From assembly GCA_007123775.1 (NCBI GenBank), contig SLGK01000027.1, positions 1-64,000 of the forward strand: 64,000 bases of DNA, in the 5' to 3' direction. Of the stretch, positions 1 through 20,244 are shown piece by piece. The translations under genes and the position numbers were made by a program. The notes below the pieces were generated by a model. The model was not told the origin of the DNA and did no database searches. It was given only the letters and a program-made list of their open reading frames with translations. The DNA is from Anaerolineae bacterium (lineage in GTDB: Bacteria > Chloroflexota > Anaerolineae > Promineifilales > Promineifilaceae). Every line of letters begins with the position of its first letter. Position 1 is the first letter of the stretch.

Positions 1-77
1 TACGCACTACGCACTACGCACTACGCACTACGCACTACGCACTACGCACTACGCACTACGTACTACGCACTACGCGC
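1..77. repeat. Heptanucleotide tandem repeat (TACGCAC)n, 11 consecutive units, truncated by the window edge
   Basis: 1-56 = 8 x TACGCAC, then TACGTAC, TACGCAC, TACGCGC; exact 7-bp period. Confidence 0.97.
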
Positions 78-1883: not shown

Positions 1884-3116
1884 TTAGCGCCGCCGCAGAA
1901 AAGCTGGTATTTCTAAATTGCCGGGCGAAAACCTTGACTGGGTGGGAACTGGTTCCGGTTCCCGCTCTTGTTCCCGTTTGGGTGGTTGGTCAGGCATGGC
2001 TAACTCTCTGTCAGGTGGGCTAACATTACTGCGGCTGAGCGGTCCCCGGCTGGGAGCTGACGATGCGTATCCAGGCTGTAGCAGCGTGCGACGACTCAGA
2101 CTGCGCTCAAAACCCGTGGCAATCACCGTTATGCGCAGCGCGTCACCCATCGACTCATCAATTACGGCTCCGAAAATCATATTGGCATCGGGGTGAGCCG
2201 TCTGACGAATAATGGTGGCGGCCTCATTGACATCAAACAGGCTCAGGTTTGAGCCGCCGGTGACGTTGAACAATATGCCCTGCGCCCCATCAATGGTCAC
2301 GTCCAGCAGACGAGAGTTGATGGCTTTCTCGGCGGCGTCACGGGCTTTGTCATCCCCCTCACCATAGCCAACCGCCATCAGCGCCGAACCACCTTCAGAC
2401 ATGATTGTTTTAACGTCGGCAAAGTCAAGGTTGATCAGACCTGGCACGGTGATCAGTTCGCTGATGCCCTGAATACCCTGGCGCAGTACGTCATCGACCA
2501 TCTTAAAAGAGTCGCTAAGGGAGACGCGGCGGTCGGTCAATTCCAACAGCCGGTCATTGGGAATGACAATGAGGGTATCCACATGCTCTTTGATGCGCTC
2601 GATGCCTTGCTCAGCGGCTTTGGCCCGCTGGCTACCTTCGAAGGTAAACGGCCGTGTCACTACCCCTATAGTTAACGCGCCCTCTTCGCGAGCCACTTTG
2701 GCCACGATGGGGGCGGCCCCAGTCCCGGTGCCGCCGCCCATACCGGCTGTTACAAAAACCATGTCAGAGCCTTTCAGCACCTCGTGAAGGTCCTCGATTG
2801 ATTCGGCAGCCGCATTTTCGCCCTGCTCCGGGTGGCCACCAGCCCCCAGACCTCGCGTCAGCTTCTCACCAATTCGGACCCGCGTCGGCGCGTCAGACAG
2901 CAATAATGCCTGGTTGTCGGTGTTAATAGCAATGAAATCAACACCGCTTACGTTGGCTTCAATCATCCGGTTAACGGCATTACTGCCACCGCCACCAACG
3001 CCGACGACTCGAATACGGGCCATGCTTTCCATTTCCGGCGCTCTTTGCATATGGATACCCTCTCTTGTTTGTACCTTACCAAACCTTTTACCGCGAAGGA
3101 GACAACTTTTCGCCAA
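1884..3116 (-). CDS. ftsZ: Cell division protein FtsZ (true start possibly ATG at about 3050)
   Basis: '[19 protein letters not shown]', '[15 protein letters not shown]', C-terminal '[10 protein letters not shown]'. Confidence 0.97.
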
Positions 3117-3247: not shown

Positions 3248-3460
3248 TTACAGCAATGTTGCTTTGTTACCAGGGCGGGGGTCATAGCGACTGGCGTATT
3301 GCTCTAGGGTTGCTTTGTCCACCAGCCATTTGTTGCCAAATTTGATCGCTGGTAATTTCCCCTGCCGAATAAGGCGGCGGACTGATTCAGGGTGGATATT
3401 CAACCGTTTGCTGACTTCAGCCACGCCTGCGTAGTTCTCCAGTAGGTCTTCTTTGCTCAT
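3248..3460 (-). CDS. Small excisionase/BldC-type helix-turn-helix DNA-binding protein
   Basis: 'GVAEVSKRLNIHPESVRRLIRQGKLPAIKFGNKWLVDKATLEQY' matches the HTH_17/excisionase pattern. Confidence 0.85.
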   Translation of the reverse strand: MSKEDLLENYAGVAEVSKRLNIHPESVRRLIRQGKLPAIKFGNKWLVDKATLEQYASRYDPRPGNKATLL

Positions 3461-3484
3461 CAGATTTTAACACCCAGCCCGGGT

Positions 3485-3526
3485 GCGGGATATTACAACA
3501 ATTTCAATGTTGAAACAATACAACAA
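3485..3526 (-). promoter_or_regulatory. Composite operator, copy A (shared with minC upstream region)
   Basis: + strand GCGGGATATTACAACAATTTCAATGTTGAAACAATACAACAA; two direct TACAACAA at 3494 and 3519, a third at 3562. Confidence 0.65.
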
Positions 3527-3543
3527 AACAAGCAATATGTCAA
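3515..3543 (-). promoter_or_regulatory. Putative sigma70-type promoter for the HTH gene
   Basis: Minus strand TTGACA (3543-3538), 17-nt spacer, TATTGT (3520-3515). Confidence 0.6.
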
Positions 3544-3646
3544 GTGCAATTGTTGATCAATTACAACAAATATAGTGTGTAGAGCGTATTTCGCAGCCTG
3601 AGTGACGACGGTCTACGCACTACGAACGACGCATTAAGAATTCGGG

Positions 3647-11594: not shown

Positions 11595-14153
11595 TCAGGC
11601 AACGGCCGTTTCTACCACCTCACTCTCCGGGCCGTCACCATTGGCCGATGGGGCTTTCTCTTGCCCATTCTCTTCCACCCGCGACAGCCGGCCTTCACGG
11701 ATTACGGCTACCGAAGCCACCGTGTCGCCGTTACGCAAATCCATCACGCGCACCCCCTGGGTAGACCGCCCCTGCTGTGAAATAGAGTCAACGGCCGTTC
11801 GCAAAATAATACCATTAGTCGAAATACAGGTCACCTCATCACCAGGGGCCACCACGCGGGCACTGACAATCTTGCCCGTTCGCTCTGGTGTCAGCACCAT
11901 CGCCCGCACCCCCTGGCCATACCGATTTTGGCAGCGATAATCATCCAGCGGCGTCCGTTTACCATACCCCTTTTCGGTAATGACAAGCACATCCTCACCC
12001 GTATCGACCACGTCTGCCCCGGCCACGTTATCCCACGCATCCAGGCGCATGGCATACACCCCGGCCGCTGTGCGACCCATCGGGCGTACATCTTCCTCGT
12101 TAAAGCGAATGCCGCGCCCCTGCTCACTCACCAGAATCAAATCCTGGCCGCCGGTGGTCATCTTGACCCAGTTGAGGCTGTCCCCTTCGTCCAGCGAAAT
12201 AGCAATAATGCCGCTGGAACGGACGTTGGCAAACGCGCCCAACTCAACCCGCTTGATGCGACCCTTTTGCGTAAACATCACCAGGTATTCGGCATCATCA
12301 AAACTATGCACGGGCAAAGCGGCCGTTACCTTCTCATCCGGCAGCAGGGGCAAAATATTCATCATCGACGACCCCTTCGCCGTTCGGTCCAGTTCCGGAA
12401 TCTGGTATACCTTTTCCACGTACACCTTACCCTGATTGGTAAAAAAGAGCATGCTGTTCAGCGTACCGGCCGCAATCAGATGCTCCAATGCATCCTCCTC
12501 GCGGGTACTCATGCCGATCAGCCCCTTACCGCCCCGCTCCTGCTTGCGGTAAGCTACCACCGGCGTCCGCTTAATGTAGCCGCGCTGCGTGATCGAAATC
12601 AGCACATCCTCATCCTGAATCATATCCTCAATATTCAGGTCAGCGTCCAGATAAGCGGCAATTTCCGAGCGGCGCTCATCGCCATACTTGTCCCGAATTT
12701 CCAGCAAATCTTCCCGAATCAGCGCCAACACTTTCTTATGATCGGCCAGCAGGTCACGCAGATAGGCAATATGCGCCGTCACTTCTTTATGCTCATCCAC
12801 AATCTTCTGCCGCTCCAGCGCGGCCAGGCGACGCAACTGCATGTCCAAAATGGCCGTTGCCTGAATCTCAGTCAGATCAAACTTTTCCACCAGACTGGTA
12901 CGGGCTGTGTCGGCATCAGGCGATTGGCGAATCGTCTCAATTACCTCGTCCAGATTGTCTTGGGCAATTAGCAGCCCTTCCAGAATATGCTGTCGCCGCA
13001 GTGCCTTGTCCAGTTCAAACTGGGTGCGCCGCCGAATGACCTCGACGCGGTGGTCGATGTAGATTTGCAGGGCGCGTTTGAGGGCCAGCAGGCGGGGCTG
13101 CTTATCAACCAGGGCCAGCATTTGGATGCCAAAGGTGGTTTGCAGCGCGGTATGTTTGTACAACTGGTTCAACACCTTGAGCGGCTGCGTCCCCCGCTTT
13201 AGCTCCACAATAATAGAGATACCGCGCCGGTCTGACTCGTCGCGCAGGTCAGAAATGTCAGGGATTTCCCCTTTGTTGACCAGTTCGGCAATGCGCTCTA
13301 TCAGCATCGACTTGTTGACCTGGAAGGGGATTTCGGTGATGTTGATGCGCTGCCGGTTGGGGTTGTTGGGCATCTCTTCCACTTCGGCCACAGCCCGGAT
13401 AATCACCCGGCCACGACCGGTAGCATAAGCGGAACGAATCCCTTCTGTCCCCACAATAATGCCGCCAGTGGGGAAATCTGGCCCTTTGACAAATTGCATC
13501 AAATCATCCAGCGTTACCTCTTCCCATTCATCCTGGCGGTCAATCAGGTGGATGACGGCGTCACACACTTCGGTCAGGTTGTGGGGCGGGATGTTGGTAG
13601 CCATACCAACGGCAATACCGGTGGAACCGTTGAGTAGCAAATTGGGCAGACGGGCCGGCAGCAGCTCTGGCTCGTTTAGGCTGTCATCAAAGTTGGGTTT
13701 AAAATCGACCGTTTCTTTGTCGATGTCTTCCAGTAATTCGGCGGCGATGGGGGCCAGCCGGGCCTCGGTGTAGCGCATGGCGGCCGCGCTGTCGCCGTCT
13801 ATGCTGCCAAAGTTGCCCTGCCCATCAACCAGTGGGTAGCGCATGGAGAAATCTTGGGCCATACGGACCATCGCATCGTAAACGGAACTGTCGCCGTGTG
13901 GGTGGTATTTACCCAGGACCTCGCCGACGATACGGGCGCTTTTGCGGTGGGCGCCGGTGTGGCGTATGCCCATATCGTGCATGGCGTAGAGGATGCGCCG
14001 ATGGACTGGCTTGAGGCCGTCGCGGGCGTCGGGTAAAGCACGGGAGACGATAACGCTCATGGCGTAGTCGAGGAAGGAGTTTCGCATCTCCCGGTTGATG
14101 TCAATGGTGTTTACAGTACCGCCATCAACGATAAGTTCTGGTTCGGTAGCCAA
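11595..14153 (-). CDS. gyrA: DNA gyrase subunit A
   Basis: '[39 protein letters not shown]', '[25 protein letters not shown]', C-terminal beta-pinwheel repeats. Confidence 0.97.
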
Positions 14154-16803: not shown

Positions 16804-16915
16804 GCGTGGAGCGTGAAAAGTGAAACGTGAAGCGTGATGCGTAAAACGTAAAGCGTAAAACGTAAAGCGTAAAACGTAAACTACGCAATACGCAATACGC
16901 AATACGCAATACGCA
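16804..16915. repeat. 16 contiguous degenerate heptads (GCGTGAA -> GCGTAAA/ACGTAAA -> ATACGCA)
   Basis: 7-bp register is unbroken for 112 nt while the unit sequence drifts. Confidence 0.95.
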
Positions 16916-17043
16916 ATAATTCATCTTTTCCATTGTAGCCATTCTCCGTGCCAGGTGAAGTGATTATGACCACACAGGGGGCTGACAAACGTCATGAATG
17001 GCATGGGCAAAGGCTGTGTTGTGGGGGGTTGTGGTAAACGCCC

Positions 17044-17072
17044 TTGTCAAACCTACCCTGTTGTTGTATTAT
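17044..17072 (+). promoter_or_regulatory. Putative sigma70-type promoter for minCDE-rodA
   Basis: TTGTCA (17044-17049), 17-nt spacer, TATTAT (17067-17072). Confidence 0.6.
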
Positions 17073-17103
17073 TTCAACAATATTGTTTGTTGTATTATCC
17101 CGC
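17061..17103 (+). promoter_or_regulatory. Composite operator, copy B (shared with the HTH-ftsZ upstream region)
   Basis: TTGTTGTATTATTTCAACAATATTGTTTGTTGTATTATCCCGC; same order and orientation relative to promoter and gene as copy A. Confidence 0.65.
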
Positions 17104-17138
17104 AGTGGGCCTGATGGTTACGCGTATAACCCAATGGT

Positions 17139-17864
17139 ATGGAGACAACCTTGAGCCAGGCAACGATTAGCATAAAGGGCATTCGCGAGGGTTTGCTGTT
17201 TGCCGTGGATGGTTCGGGATCGGTGGCTGACGCGCTGGCTGAACTGGAGCAGGTGGTGGCAGAACGCCATGCTTTCTTGCAGGGCAGCCGCGTGGCGCTG
17301 ACCGTAGGTATGCGGCCGTTTACGGCCGATCAACTGCAAGCGGTGCAAACGCTACTGGCTGACCATGACCTGGAGTTGTGGACGGTGCTGGCAGAGCGAG
17401 CGGAGACACGCCAGGCGGCCCGCAAGCTGGGACTGGCCACGCGCCTGCCGGGTAGTCAAACTGATTTGGACGGGAATGTCCTGGCAGAAACGGCCGTTTC
17501 CAGGCAACCAGGTTCCCTTCACCCGGAACCAACGGCTACCGGCGATCTCTTTTTGCGCGAGACGTTGCGCTCAGGCCGCTCCGTTTATCACGAAGGGTCC
17601 GTTACTATTTTAGGCGACGTCAATCCCGGCGCGGAAATCATTGCTGAGGGCAGCGTGATCGTCTGGGGCCGGCTGCGCGGTCTGGTTCATGCGGGTGTTG
17701 GTGGCGACGAAACGGCCGTTATCTGCGCTCTCGATCTTAGCCCCACCCAGCTACGTATTGCCAATCAGATTGCTATTCCACCGGCCGAATCTCGCCCCAC
17801 TACTCAGCCGGAACAAGCAACTATTCGTCAGGGCCAGATTGTAGCCGCGCCATGGCATAAATAA
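17139..17864 (+). CDS. minC: Septum site-determining protein MinC
   Basis: 'VYHEGSVTILGDVNPGAEIIAEGSVIVWGRLRGLVHAG' and 'AVICALDLSPTQLRIA' MinC C-domain. Confidence 0.93.
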   Translation: METTLSQATISIKGIREGLLFAVDGSGSVADALAELEQVVAERHAFLQGSRVALTVGMRPFTADQLQAVQTLLADHDLELWTVLAERAETRQAARKLGLATRLPGSQTDLDGNVLAETAVSRQPGSLHPEPTATGDLFLRETLRSGRSVYHEGSVTILGDVNPGAEIIAEGSVIVWGRLRGLVHAGVGGDETAVICALDLSPTQLRIANQIAIPPAESRPTTQPEQATIRQGQIVAAPWHK

Positions 17865-17905: not shown

Positions 17906-18709
17906 ATGAGTGCAAAAGTAATCACCGTTACCTCCGGTAAGGGTGGCGTGGGTAAAACAACCGTCACCGCCAATCTGGCCGCGGCGTTGGCCATGATGGG
18001 CAACAAGGTTGTCACCATTGACGCTGATATTGGCCTGCGTAATCTGGACGTCGTCATGGGGCTGGAAAACCGGATCGTCTATGACCTGGTAGACGTGGTC
18101 GAAGGGCGCTGCCGTATCCGCCAGGCGATGATCAAAGACAAACGCCAGCCTGAGCTTTACCTTATCCCCGCGGCTCAAACCCGTGACAAAATGGCCGTAA
18201 GCCCCTCAGACATGGTGCTGGTATGCGACCAGTTGCGGGAGGAGATGGACTATATTTTGCTGGATTCCCCGGCCGGCATTGAGCGGGGTTTTCGTAACGC
18301 GCTGGCTCCGGCCGATCAGGTACTCATTGTCACCAACCCGGAGGTATCGGCCGTGCGTGACGCGGATCGGATTGTGGGGTTGATCGAAGCCGAGGAGAAA
18401 GGACCGGCCAAATTGATTATCAACCGGCTCAAACCGGCCATGGTAGCGCGGGGTGACATGCTCTCTATCGAAGATGTGCTGGACATTTTGATGATAGACC
18501 TGATAGGCGTTGTGCCTGAAGACGAGTCGGTGCTGGTGGCCAGCAATCAGGGTACCCCTATCGCTATGGCCAGCGTCAACGGCTCCAGCGCCGGGCAGTC
18601 GTTCCGCAACATCGCCCGCCGCCTGCAAGGGGAAGAAGTGCCCCTGCTGGATTTGATGGCCAAAAATGGATTTTGGGACCGTGTGCGCAACTGGGTCAAC
18701 GGTGTATAG
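17906..18709 (+). CDS. minD: Septum site-determining ATPase MinD
   Basis: 'ITVTSGKGGVGKTTVTANLAAALAMMGNKVVTIDADIGLRNLDVVMGLENRIVYDLVDV'. Confidence 0.97.
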   Translation: MSAKVITVTSGKGGVGKTTVTANLAAALAMMGNKVVTIDADIGLRNLDVVMGLENRIVYDLVDVVEGRCRIRQAMIKDKRQPELYLIPAAQTRDKMAVSPSDMVLVCDQLREEMDYILLDSPAGIERGFRNALAPADQVLIVTNPEVSAVRDADRIVGLIEAEEKGPAKLIINRLKPAMVARGDMLSIEDVLDILMIDLIGVVPEDESVLVASNQGTPIAMASVNGSSAGQSFRNIARRLQGEEVPLLDLMAKNGFWDRVRNWVNGV

Positions 18710-18767: not shown

Positions 18768-19052
18768 ATGAGTTGGTTAGATAGATTATTTGGCAAAAAA
18801 GAGACGAGTAGTAATGTGGCCAAGCAGCGGCTGCAAATGGTCCTTATCCACGATCGCAGTGACATTTCCCCCGGCATCATTGAACAGATTAAGGATGAGA
18901 TTATCGAGGTAATTGCCCGGCGGCTGTCGGTTGATTCGGATAACGTGGTCATCAATTTGACCCAGACTGCCAAGGAAAGCCGGCTGGTGGCGGAGATTCC
19001 GCTGCAAAGTAGCAGGGTAGCGGAGTGGCGAAGTGGCGGGGTGGCAAAGTAA
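18768..19052 (+). CDS. minE: Cell division topological specificity factor MinE, with repeat-derived C-terminal tail
   Basis: 'SSNVAKQRLQMVLIHDRSDISPGIIEQIKDEIIEVIARRLSVD'; last residues 'RVAEWRSGGVAK' lie in the GTGGCGAA-type repeat. Confidence 0.93.
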   Translation: MSWLDRLFGKKETSSNVAKQRLQMVLIHDRSDISPGIIEQIKDEIIEVIARRLSVDSDNVVINLTQTAKESRLVAEIPLQSSRVAEWRSGGVAK

Positions 19053-19140: not shown

Positions 19141-20244
19141 ATGTTATCAAACACGTCTGTTTGGCGACACTTTGATCTTTGGCTGGCAGCGGCTGTTCTG
19201 GTTTTGACGGCCTACGGCATCCTCATGATCCGCAGTGCTGTCACCGGTGCCCCTGCCCTAGAGCCACTGGCCGGGCAGCAGATTATTTGGGCCGTTATTG
19301 GTTTCGTCTTTATGATTGCCATGGCGGCCGTTGACTACCGCTATTTTGCCTCCTCCCACTGGTATATTTACGCCGTTCTGATTGTAGCCCTACTGATAGT
19401 CATCGTGGCCGGCCAGGTCAACAACGAAGCCCGACGCTGGATTAGCCTCGGTTTTATTGAGATTCAACCGTCAGAATTCGGCCGTGTCTTTATCGCCATC
19501 ACCTTTGGCCAATTCCTGGCCAGTCGGCGGCAGTATATTCACCGCTTCAGCAATACGATCATGTCCCTGGCCTACATTGGCCTGCCCATCGTCCTCATCT
19601 TCCTACAGCCCGACCTGGGGATGACGCTGCTTTACGTCGTTATCTGGTTTATCATGATCTGGCTAGCAGGACTGCCGCTGAGCCACTTTGCTGTGCTGGG
19701 GGCCATTGGTATTTTGGGTATCGGGGCCATCTTCCCCTTTTTAGCCCCCTACCAGCAAGAGCGCATTACCTCCTTTATCAACCCCGAAGCGGATACGGCC
19801 AGCGTATTCAACGTTGATCAGGCGGAGATCAGTATTGGCACCGGTGGTTTGTGGGGTAAAGGCTATATGCAGGGTACACAGAGCCAGCTTGGTTTCTTGC
19901 GCGTACAGCACACCGACTTTATTTTCTCCGTGGTTACGGAAGAAATGGGGCTGTTTTTTGGATCGGCCGTTGTGCTGTTGCTCATGGGGTTTATCTTGCT
20001 CAGGATTATCCAGGCAGCGGCTTTGACTACCGATCCGGCTGGAAAGTTGATGTGTGCCGGCATTGCCGGTATTCTCTTCTTTCAAACGCTGGTTAACGTG
20101 GGCATGAACGTGCGCCTGCTGCCTGTCACCGGTCTGACCCTCCCCTTTGTCAGCTATGGGGGCAGTTCTCTCATCACGCTCTTTTTAGCTATCGGTGTGG
20201 TACAATCAATCCGTATGCGGCATCGTAAACAAGAATTTGGATAA
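19141..20244 (+). CDS. rodA: RodA/FtsW family SEDS peptidoglycan polymerase
   Basis: 'EARRWISLGFIEIQPSEFGRVFIAI', 'KGYMQGTQSQLGFLRVQHTDFIFSVVTEEMG', 'LPFVSYGGSSLI'. Confidence 0.95.
   Translation: MLSNTSVWRHFDLWLAAAVLVLTAYGILMIRSAVTGAPALEPLAGQQIIWAVIGFVFMIAMAAVDYRYFASSHWYIYAVLIVALLIVIVAGQVNNEARRWISLGFIEIQPSEFGRVFIAITFGQFLASRRQYIHRFSNTIMSLAYIGLPIVLIFLQPDLGMTLLYVVIWFIMIWLAGLPLSHFAVLGAIGILGIGAIFPFLAPYQQERITSFINPEADTASVFNVDQAEISIGTGGLWGKGYMQGTQSQLGFLRVQHTDFIFSVVTEEMGLFFGSAVVLLLMGFILLRIIQAAALTTDPAGKLMCAGIAGILFFQTLVNVGMNVRLLPVTGLTLPFVSYGGSSLITLFLAIGVVQSIRMRHRKQEFG

Follow-up and report, generated by a model that had tools for sequence, protein, structure and literature searches.

The stretch of DNA analyzed here (the window, 64,000 nucleotides from an Anaerolineae bacterium) carries ftsZ behind a gene for a small winged helix-turn-helix (HTH) protein, and the promoter of this pair shares sequence elements with that of minCDE-rodA. 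The locus raises the question of what the shared element is, what binds it, and which genes it governs. No binding or expression data are available, but the element is likely the operator through which a 70-amino-acid winged-HTH autorepressor sets the expression of ftsZ, minCDE-rodA, dnaN, and dnaE, in a small regulon shared across the family.

The HTH-ftsZ promoter lies on the minus strand (positions 3515 to 3543) and consists of TTGACA (3543 to 3538), a 17-nt spacer, and TATTGT (3520 to 3515). Three elements accompany it: O1 (3550 to 3569), an inverted repeat TTGTTG-N8-CAACAA immediately upstream of the −35; O2 (3508 to 3526; TTGTTGTATTGTTTCAACA on the minus strand), which overlaps the −10; and O3 (3484 to 3501; TTGTTGTAATATCCCGCA on the minus strand), which lies 13 nt past the −10 and was matched by the site model with an E value of 1.7e-4. 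On the plus strand, the minC promoter (17044 to 17072) consists of TTGTCA (17044 to 17049), 17 nt, and TATTAT (17067 to 17072) and is accompanied by its own O2 (17061 to 17080; TTGTTGTATTATTTCAACAA) and O3 (17087 to 17104; TTGTTGTATTATCCCGCA; model E value, 4.0e-4). The sequence-only reading had called both promoters and proposed that they share an element; the promoters are present as called and the shared element held, with the correction that the spacing between its parts is not identical, being 8 nt in one copy and 9 nt in the other.

That reading would have been refuted by a dispersed repeat occurring at unrelated loci, which did not occur in the genome. GCGGGATAWTACAACAA at no more than two mismatches has two matches in the window against 0.01 expected, the pair TACAACAA..TACAACAA is found at only two places in the 5.59-Mb genome, the HTH(-ftsZ) and minCDE-rodA promoters, and the 19-mer TTGTTGTATTNTTTCAACA without mismatches is likewise present genome-wide at the HTH and minC promoters only. 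Identity as a dispersed repeat is thus ruled out by the confinement of the paired element and the 19-mer to two promoters, with which the model search agrees. The region upstream of gyrA (11598 to 14153, also in the window) was read and has none of the sites; it holds only AATACAATAA, located at the start codon. Separately, short degenerate CTACGCA / GCGTAAAAC repeats are present in several intergenic regions of the window (1 to 75, 3610 to 3640, and 16820 to 16920), and TTGTTGTATACTTTAAGCA is found repeatedly in the same genome close to contig ends, on four contigs (L007, L009, L010, and L013), where it is probably a dispersed repeat that breaks the assembly.

The gene assignments at the two loci rest on profile matches. 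The candidate regulator, the first gene of HTH-ftsZ, is encoded on the minus strand at 3248 to 3460 (HTH_17, 1.1e-13; TIGR01764 "excise"), followed on the same strand by ftsZ at 1884 to 3050 (TIGR00065, 433.7 bits, above the cutoff). On the plus strand, minC (17139 to 17864; TIGR01222), minD (17906 to 18709; TIGR01968), and minE (18768 to 19052; TIGR01215) all score above their cutoffs and are followed by a rodA/ftsW-type SEDS gene (19141 to 20244; PF01098, 1.1e-85), whose best NCBIfam model, rodA, scores 334 bits, just under its cutoff of 336.7. The gap between the HTH gene and ftsZ is about 200 nt here and mostly shorter in relatives, and no terminator-like site was seen between them at this locus; cotranscription is plausible as a possibility but is inferred. 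The pairing itself is conserved, with ftsZ directly following the HTH gene at 29 of 30 loci in family f1; the remaining locus lies at the edge of a contig. In some relatives, another ftsZ lies behind an ftsA-like gene (L330, L331, L332, and L336). Since these ftsA-linked copies form a clade apart from the HTH-linked f1 copies, the HTH-linked FtsZ is, as shown for those relatives, a distinct paralogue. Several copies of ftsZ are present in one genome, G033, two of them in tandem on the same contig.

If the element is an operator, it should be retained in relatives, and a lack of conservation upstream of these genes had been named beforehand as a result that would refute the proposal. A protein search of 59 relatives recovered a clear HTH orthologue in most f1 genomes and in three genomes of family f2. 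Their upstream regions show conserved −35 and −10 hexamers, a recurring TTGACA...TTGTTGTATTGTTACAACA...AATTGTTGTAATATCCCGCAT arrangement, and, in many relatives, an O1-like element. A site with no more than two mismatches was present in the HTH promoter at 26 of 29 f1 loci; the sites of G017, G030, and G031 are degenerate. The minC promoter, usually TTGCAA-N17-TATTAT in relatives, carries at least one element at all 24 f1 loci, although O3 is missing at L075, L089, and L096. No minC was found in G019, where rodA itself has a double element. The element is therefore conserved at both the HTH and minC promoters.

The search was extended to whole genomes with the core TTGTTGTANTATCCCGCA in the same 59 relatives, comprising 35 f1 genomes and 24 from outside f1. 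At no more than two mismatches, the f1 genomes contained 127 sites versus 18 for the reversed control pattern, whereas the 24 others contained 7 versus 6 for the control. Individual f1 genomes have only about three to five sites. These fall almost always at one of four targets, where their distance from the −10 is fixed; the model search agrees, with significant sites few in each f1 genome and nearly absent from the rest of the class. In the genome containing the window, all genes were scanned by the model search only. The full site TGCGGGATANTACAACAA has two further strong matches there, both immediately behind a promoter, one belonging to dnaN, encoding the sliding clamp (C123:2440; E value, 1.0e-5), and the other to dnaE, encoding the replicative polymerase (C296:5390; E value, 5.0e-4). 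Across the relatives, the targets confirmed by profiles besides the HTH gene and minC are dnaN, dnaE, rodA, and mraZ, the last with an upstream site in a single genome (G003).

At the two replication genes, the sites keep a consistent geometry. A dnaN site at no more than two mismatches was present at 20 of 20 f1 loci and at none of 10 loci from other families, and all 33 dnaN sites located relative to a promoter lie 10 to 17 nt past the −10 hexamer (median, 15). For dnaE, 25 of 28 loci have a site at no more than four mismatches (24 by script, plus L217 seen at three mismatches), close behind TATACT/TATAAT; it is absent from G013, G016, and G023. In the HTH, minC, and rodA promoters, O3 starts 13 to 15 nt past the −10 (35 cases). 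With respect to transcription, the site faces one way at dnaN and dnaE and the other way at the HTH gene and minC, and the site logo holds about 31 bits over 27 columns. These comparisons show the sites, their targets and geometry, their conservation, and their restriction to the clade. They support the regulon of HTH-ftsZ and minCDE-rodA proposed by the sequence-only reading and enlarge it by dnaN and dnaE, with binding and repression still inferred.

A number of other matches, weak ones in the model search, were kept out of the core regulon. These are a fifth site in the same genome as the window (C66:290, locus L106; E value, 0.0096), to which no target could be assigned, a match in G011 (contig C238), a variant site, TGCGGGATTATACAACAA, after the promoter of a caspase-like (EACC1-associated) gene in genus g4 (L132 and L135), and, in G008 and G024 (L121 and L126), a site just upstream of a TTGACA at a gene whose product begins like an AAA ATPase (GRRRxGKTRLL). 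In G005 and G025 (L144 and L145), the dnaN operator lies directly upstream of the −35; after the −10, G025 has a second full copy and G005 only a degenerate one. The dnaE open reading frames vary widely, from 1138 to 1677 amino acids (L213 of G006 and others), and inteins or inserts are possible.

More-distant orthologues bear on which protein reads the site. Within a class-wide sample of 299 genomes, HTH orthologues were confined to eight families (f1, f2, f17, f26, f45, f46, f50, and f58), and a scan with the HTH alignment, taking one genome per species, yielded 62 loci, which come from Ardenticatenaceae, Promineifilum, and other Anaerolineae metagenome-assembled genomes. In f2, the HTH promoter carries TGCTGGACAGTACAACAA or a similar sequence in three of three genomes, while minC and dnaE have no site and that of dnaN amounts to a weak half at best; retention at the HTH gene alone among these four counts in favor of the HTH protein as the binder. 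In the other HTH-bearing families, the sites found are also at the HTH gene itself, with the CCCGCA half often absent and the TTGTTGTA half kept. Distant HTH loci carry, right after the −10, either TGTTGYA-N-TRCAACA-like repeats (for example, ATAATAATGTTGTATCATACAACAA at L289) or TATAATTGTTGTAGTAGTAAGCA-like sites, but no clear site was seen at L295, L303, and L304. The strict palindrome, searched in 15 distant genomes, was found in four, once in each and always upstream of the HTH gene. If autoregulation is taken to require an operator in the gene's own promoter, the requirement is met at 26 of 29 loci in f1, in three of three f2 genomes, and in most distant orthologues. Because almost every orthologue has this own-promoter site, also in families whose other targets lack one, the HTH protein is the best candidate regulator, an inference that rests on comparative evidence.

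The same loci suggest an order of events. The HTH gene is followed directly by minC at seven distant loci (L292, L293, L295, L296, L298, L299, and L300), in most cases with minD behind; rodA is also seen in this neighborhood at L300, and the gene order in G311 is HTH-minC-minD-minE. Most of these seven loci carry a TGTTGYA-N-TRCAACA-like repeat directly past the −10. Because distant HTH promoters carry sites and the HTH gene there heads the min operon, we infer that autoregulation and the min link are ancestral, that linkage to ftsZ is specific to f1 and f2, and that the capture of dnaN and dnaE is specific to f1. In f17 (L321), an FtsK-like reading frame, recognized by eye only, follows the HTH orthologue.

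In the likely reading, the HTH protein binds TGCGGGATANTACAACAA-type sites that lie in the promoters it controls from the −10 to roughly +25, with a second bound site over the −10 in the HTH, minC, and rodA promoters and a third upstream of the −35 in the HTH promoter. Repression is inferred from where the sites lie, namely at the −10 and from about +1 to +25; occlusion of RNA polymerase would then repress the HTH gene with downstream ftsZ, minCDE-rodA, dnaN, and dnaE. Such a circuit would act as one negative-feedback dial common to genes of division (FtsZ, Min, and SEDS) and replication (the clamp and the replicative polymerase). The several sites in the HTH promoter would give tight autorepression and, since the protein lacks an effector domain, the cue may simply be how concentrated it is. 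Oldest in this circuit would be self-regulation and the connection with min, as the HTH gene heads the min operon in distant lineages, and dnaN and dnaE would have been added in f1. Against this reading stand the five incomplete f1 genomes with sites but no detected HTH gene, the dnaE and HTH promoters whose site is absent or degenerate, and the half-site TGCGGG, which differs from TGTTGTA, so that a second protein could bind it.

The alternative that survives best keeps the HTH protein as the binder but has it activate, or work as a roadblock or as a nucleoid-associated oligomer, instead of being a classical repressor. This remains possible, as BldC-type proteins can oligomerize on DNA (PMC5859096) and an additional element precedes the −35 of the HTH promoter. 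Against it, sites at +1 to +25 and overlapping the −10 occur in nearly all targets and are typical repressor positions, whereas activators usually bind upstream.

It is less probable, and in our judgment unlikely, that the element is the operator of another regulator, such as DnaA, MraZ, NrdR, or an unidentified factor, with the HTH gene merely one target. In its favor, dnaN has a classic link to DnaA, the half TTATCCCGCA bears a loose resemblance to the DnaA box TTATCCACA, and sites persist in five incomplete genomes in which no HTH gene was detected. However, DnaA, MraZ, and NrdR are widespread, whereas the site is restricted to the clade and occurs three to five times per genome; in other HTH-bearing families, moreover, the sites found lie at the HTH gene itself, often without the CCCGCA half but with the TTGTTGTA half retained. 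A DnaA box specifically is ruled out by the poor match and the clade restriction. The five genomes (G004, G006, G026, G029, and G033, all f1 and 73 to 85% complete) have sites but no HTH orthologue that we could find. The ftsZ genes recovered in G004, G006, and G026 and one of those in G033 are ftsA-linked. The HTH-ftsZ pair is thus missing there as a unit, owing to either a gap or a real loss; the latter is possible in G006 and G026, because both belong to one genus.

An untranslated-RNA element or promoter convergence without a dedicated regulator is very unlikely: the site does lie within the predicted 5' leader of all targets, but its orientation at dnaN and dnaE, reversed with respect to transcription from that at the HTH gene and minC, rules out an RNA leader element and favors a DNA site, G025 and G005 have a copy also upstream of the −35, and about 31 bits is far beyond what promoter hexamers need.

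If the repressor reading is correct, DNA copying and division would be tied together across a Chloroflexota family by a regulon so small, and so nearly confined to replication and division machinery, that the matching of replisome and divisome supply is directly testable. It would also give a function to "excisionase-like" small HTH proteins, which are usually dismissed as mobile-element debris, and the series from HTH-minCDE to HTH-ftsZ to the capture of dnaN and dnaE would document regulon growth from one self-controlling operon. A bolder version, for which the present evidence tips neither way, makes this BldC-like 70-residue protein the master coordinator of replisome and divisome in the clade, through a loop that grew from a self-regulating HTH-minCDE operon and later captured ftsZ, dnaN, and dnaE. 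We found no paper on this regulon, or on a transcriptional cell cycle regulator for Chloroflexota, in the literature searched, where Anaerolineae and ftsZ together returned one unrelated review only; this is no proof of absence.

The protein itself resembles several known systems, each in part. Its HTH_17 match spans residues 13 to 58, with a winged HTH predicted, and it scores 47.7 bits against the TIGR01764 excise model (cutoff, 28.8). It thus shares the winged-HTH superfamily with excisionase/RDF proteins (TIGR01764; RdfS, Tn916 Xis). Unlike theirs, its gene is vertically conserved beside ftsZ or minC; with ftsZ as its neighbor at 29 of 30 f1 loci and minC at seven distant ones, the criterion of association with mobile elements is not met, and no integrase or mobile element was seen among the neighboring genes, although no integrase profile search was made. 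The criteria for the MerR family proper are not met either (PF00376, 21.4 bits, below the cutoff of 28.2; only 70 amino acids). A phmmer search against PDB sequences gave nothing meaningful. The top Foldseek match of the structural model (pLDDT, 79) is BldC (6AMA), with a modest E value of 3.1e-3 and a TM score of 0.81 on the target, followed by RacA and then phage Xis. BldC of Streptomyces is a MerR-like protein of 68 amino acids with a single winged HTH that binds 9-bp direct repeats, AATTXXXX(C), head to tail (PMC5859096). The size and architecture agree (about 70 amino acids, one winged HTH, no effector or coiled-coil domain). The DNA pattern does not; the direct-repeat analogy drawn at the outset failed, as BldC-style direct repeats were not seen as the organizing pattern in the operators, which are inverted (TGTTGYA-N-TRCAACA) or asymmetric (TGCGGGATANTACAACAA) repeats containing TACAACAA, with dnaN, dnaE, ftsZ, and minCDE as targets.

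In function, transcription factors that govern both replication and division genes are known in alphaproteobacteria as CtrA and GcrA. These are unrelated proteins, linked to two-component signaling or methylation, with large regulons. McdR (Rv1830) of mycobacteria is a MerR-related protein that has an inverted-repeat motif near the whiB2 transcription start site and for which repression has been shown (PMC9040748). Although McdR is a full MerR-family protein that acts via whiB2 and imuAB/dnaE2 through the motif AATnACAnnnnTGTnATT (PMC9040748), and has neither an ftsZ-linked regulator gene nor a Min operon, it is the nearest functional analogue that we found, in that a MerR-related regulator joins division to genes of DNA synthesis and repair (PMC9040748).
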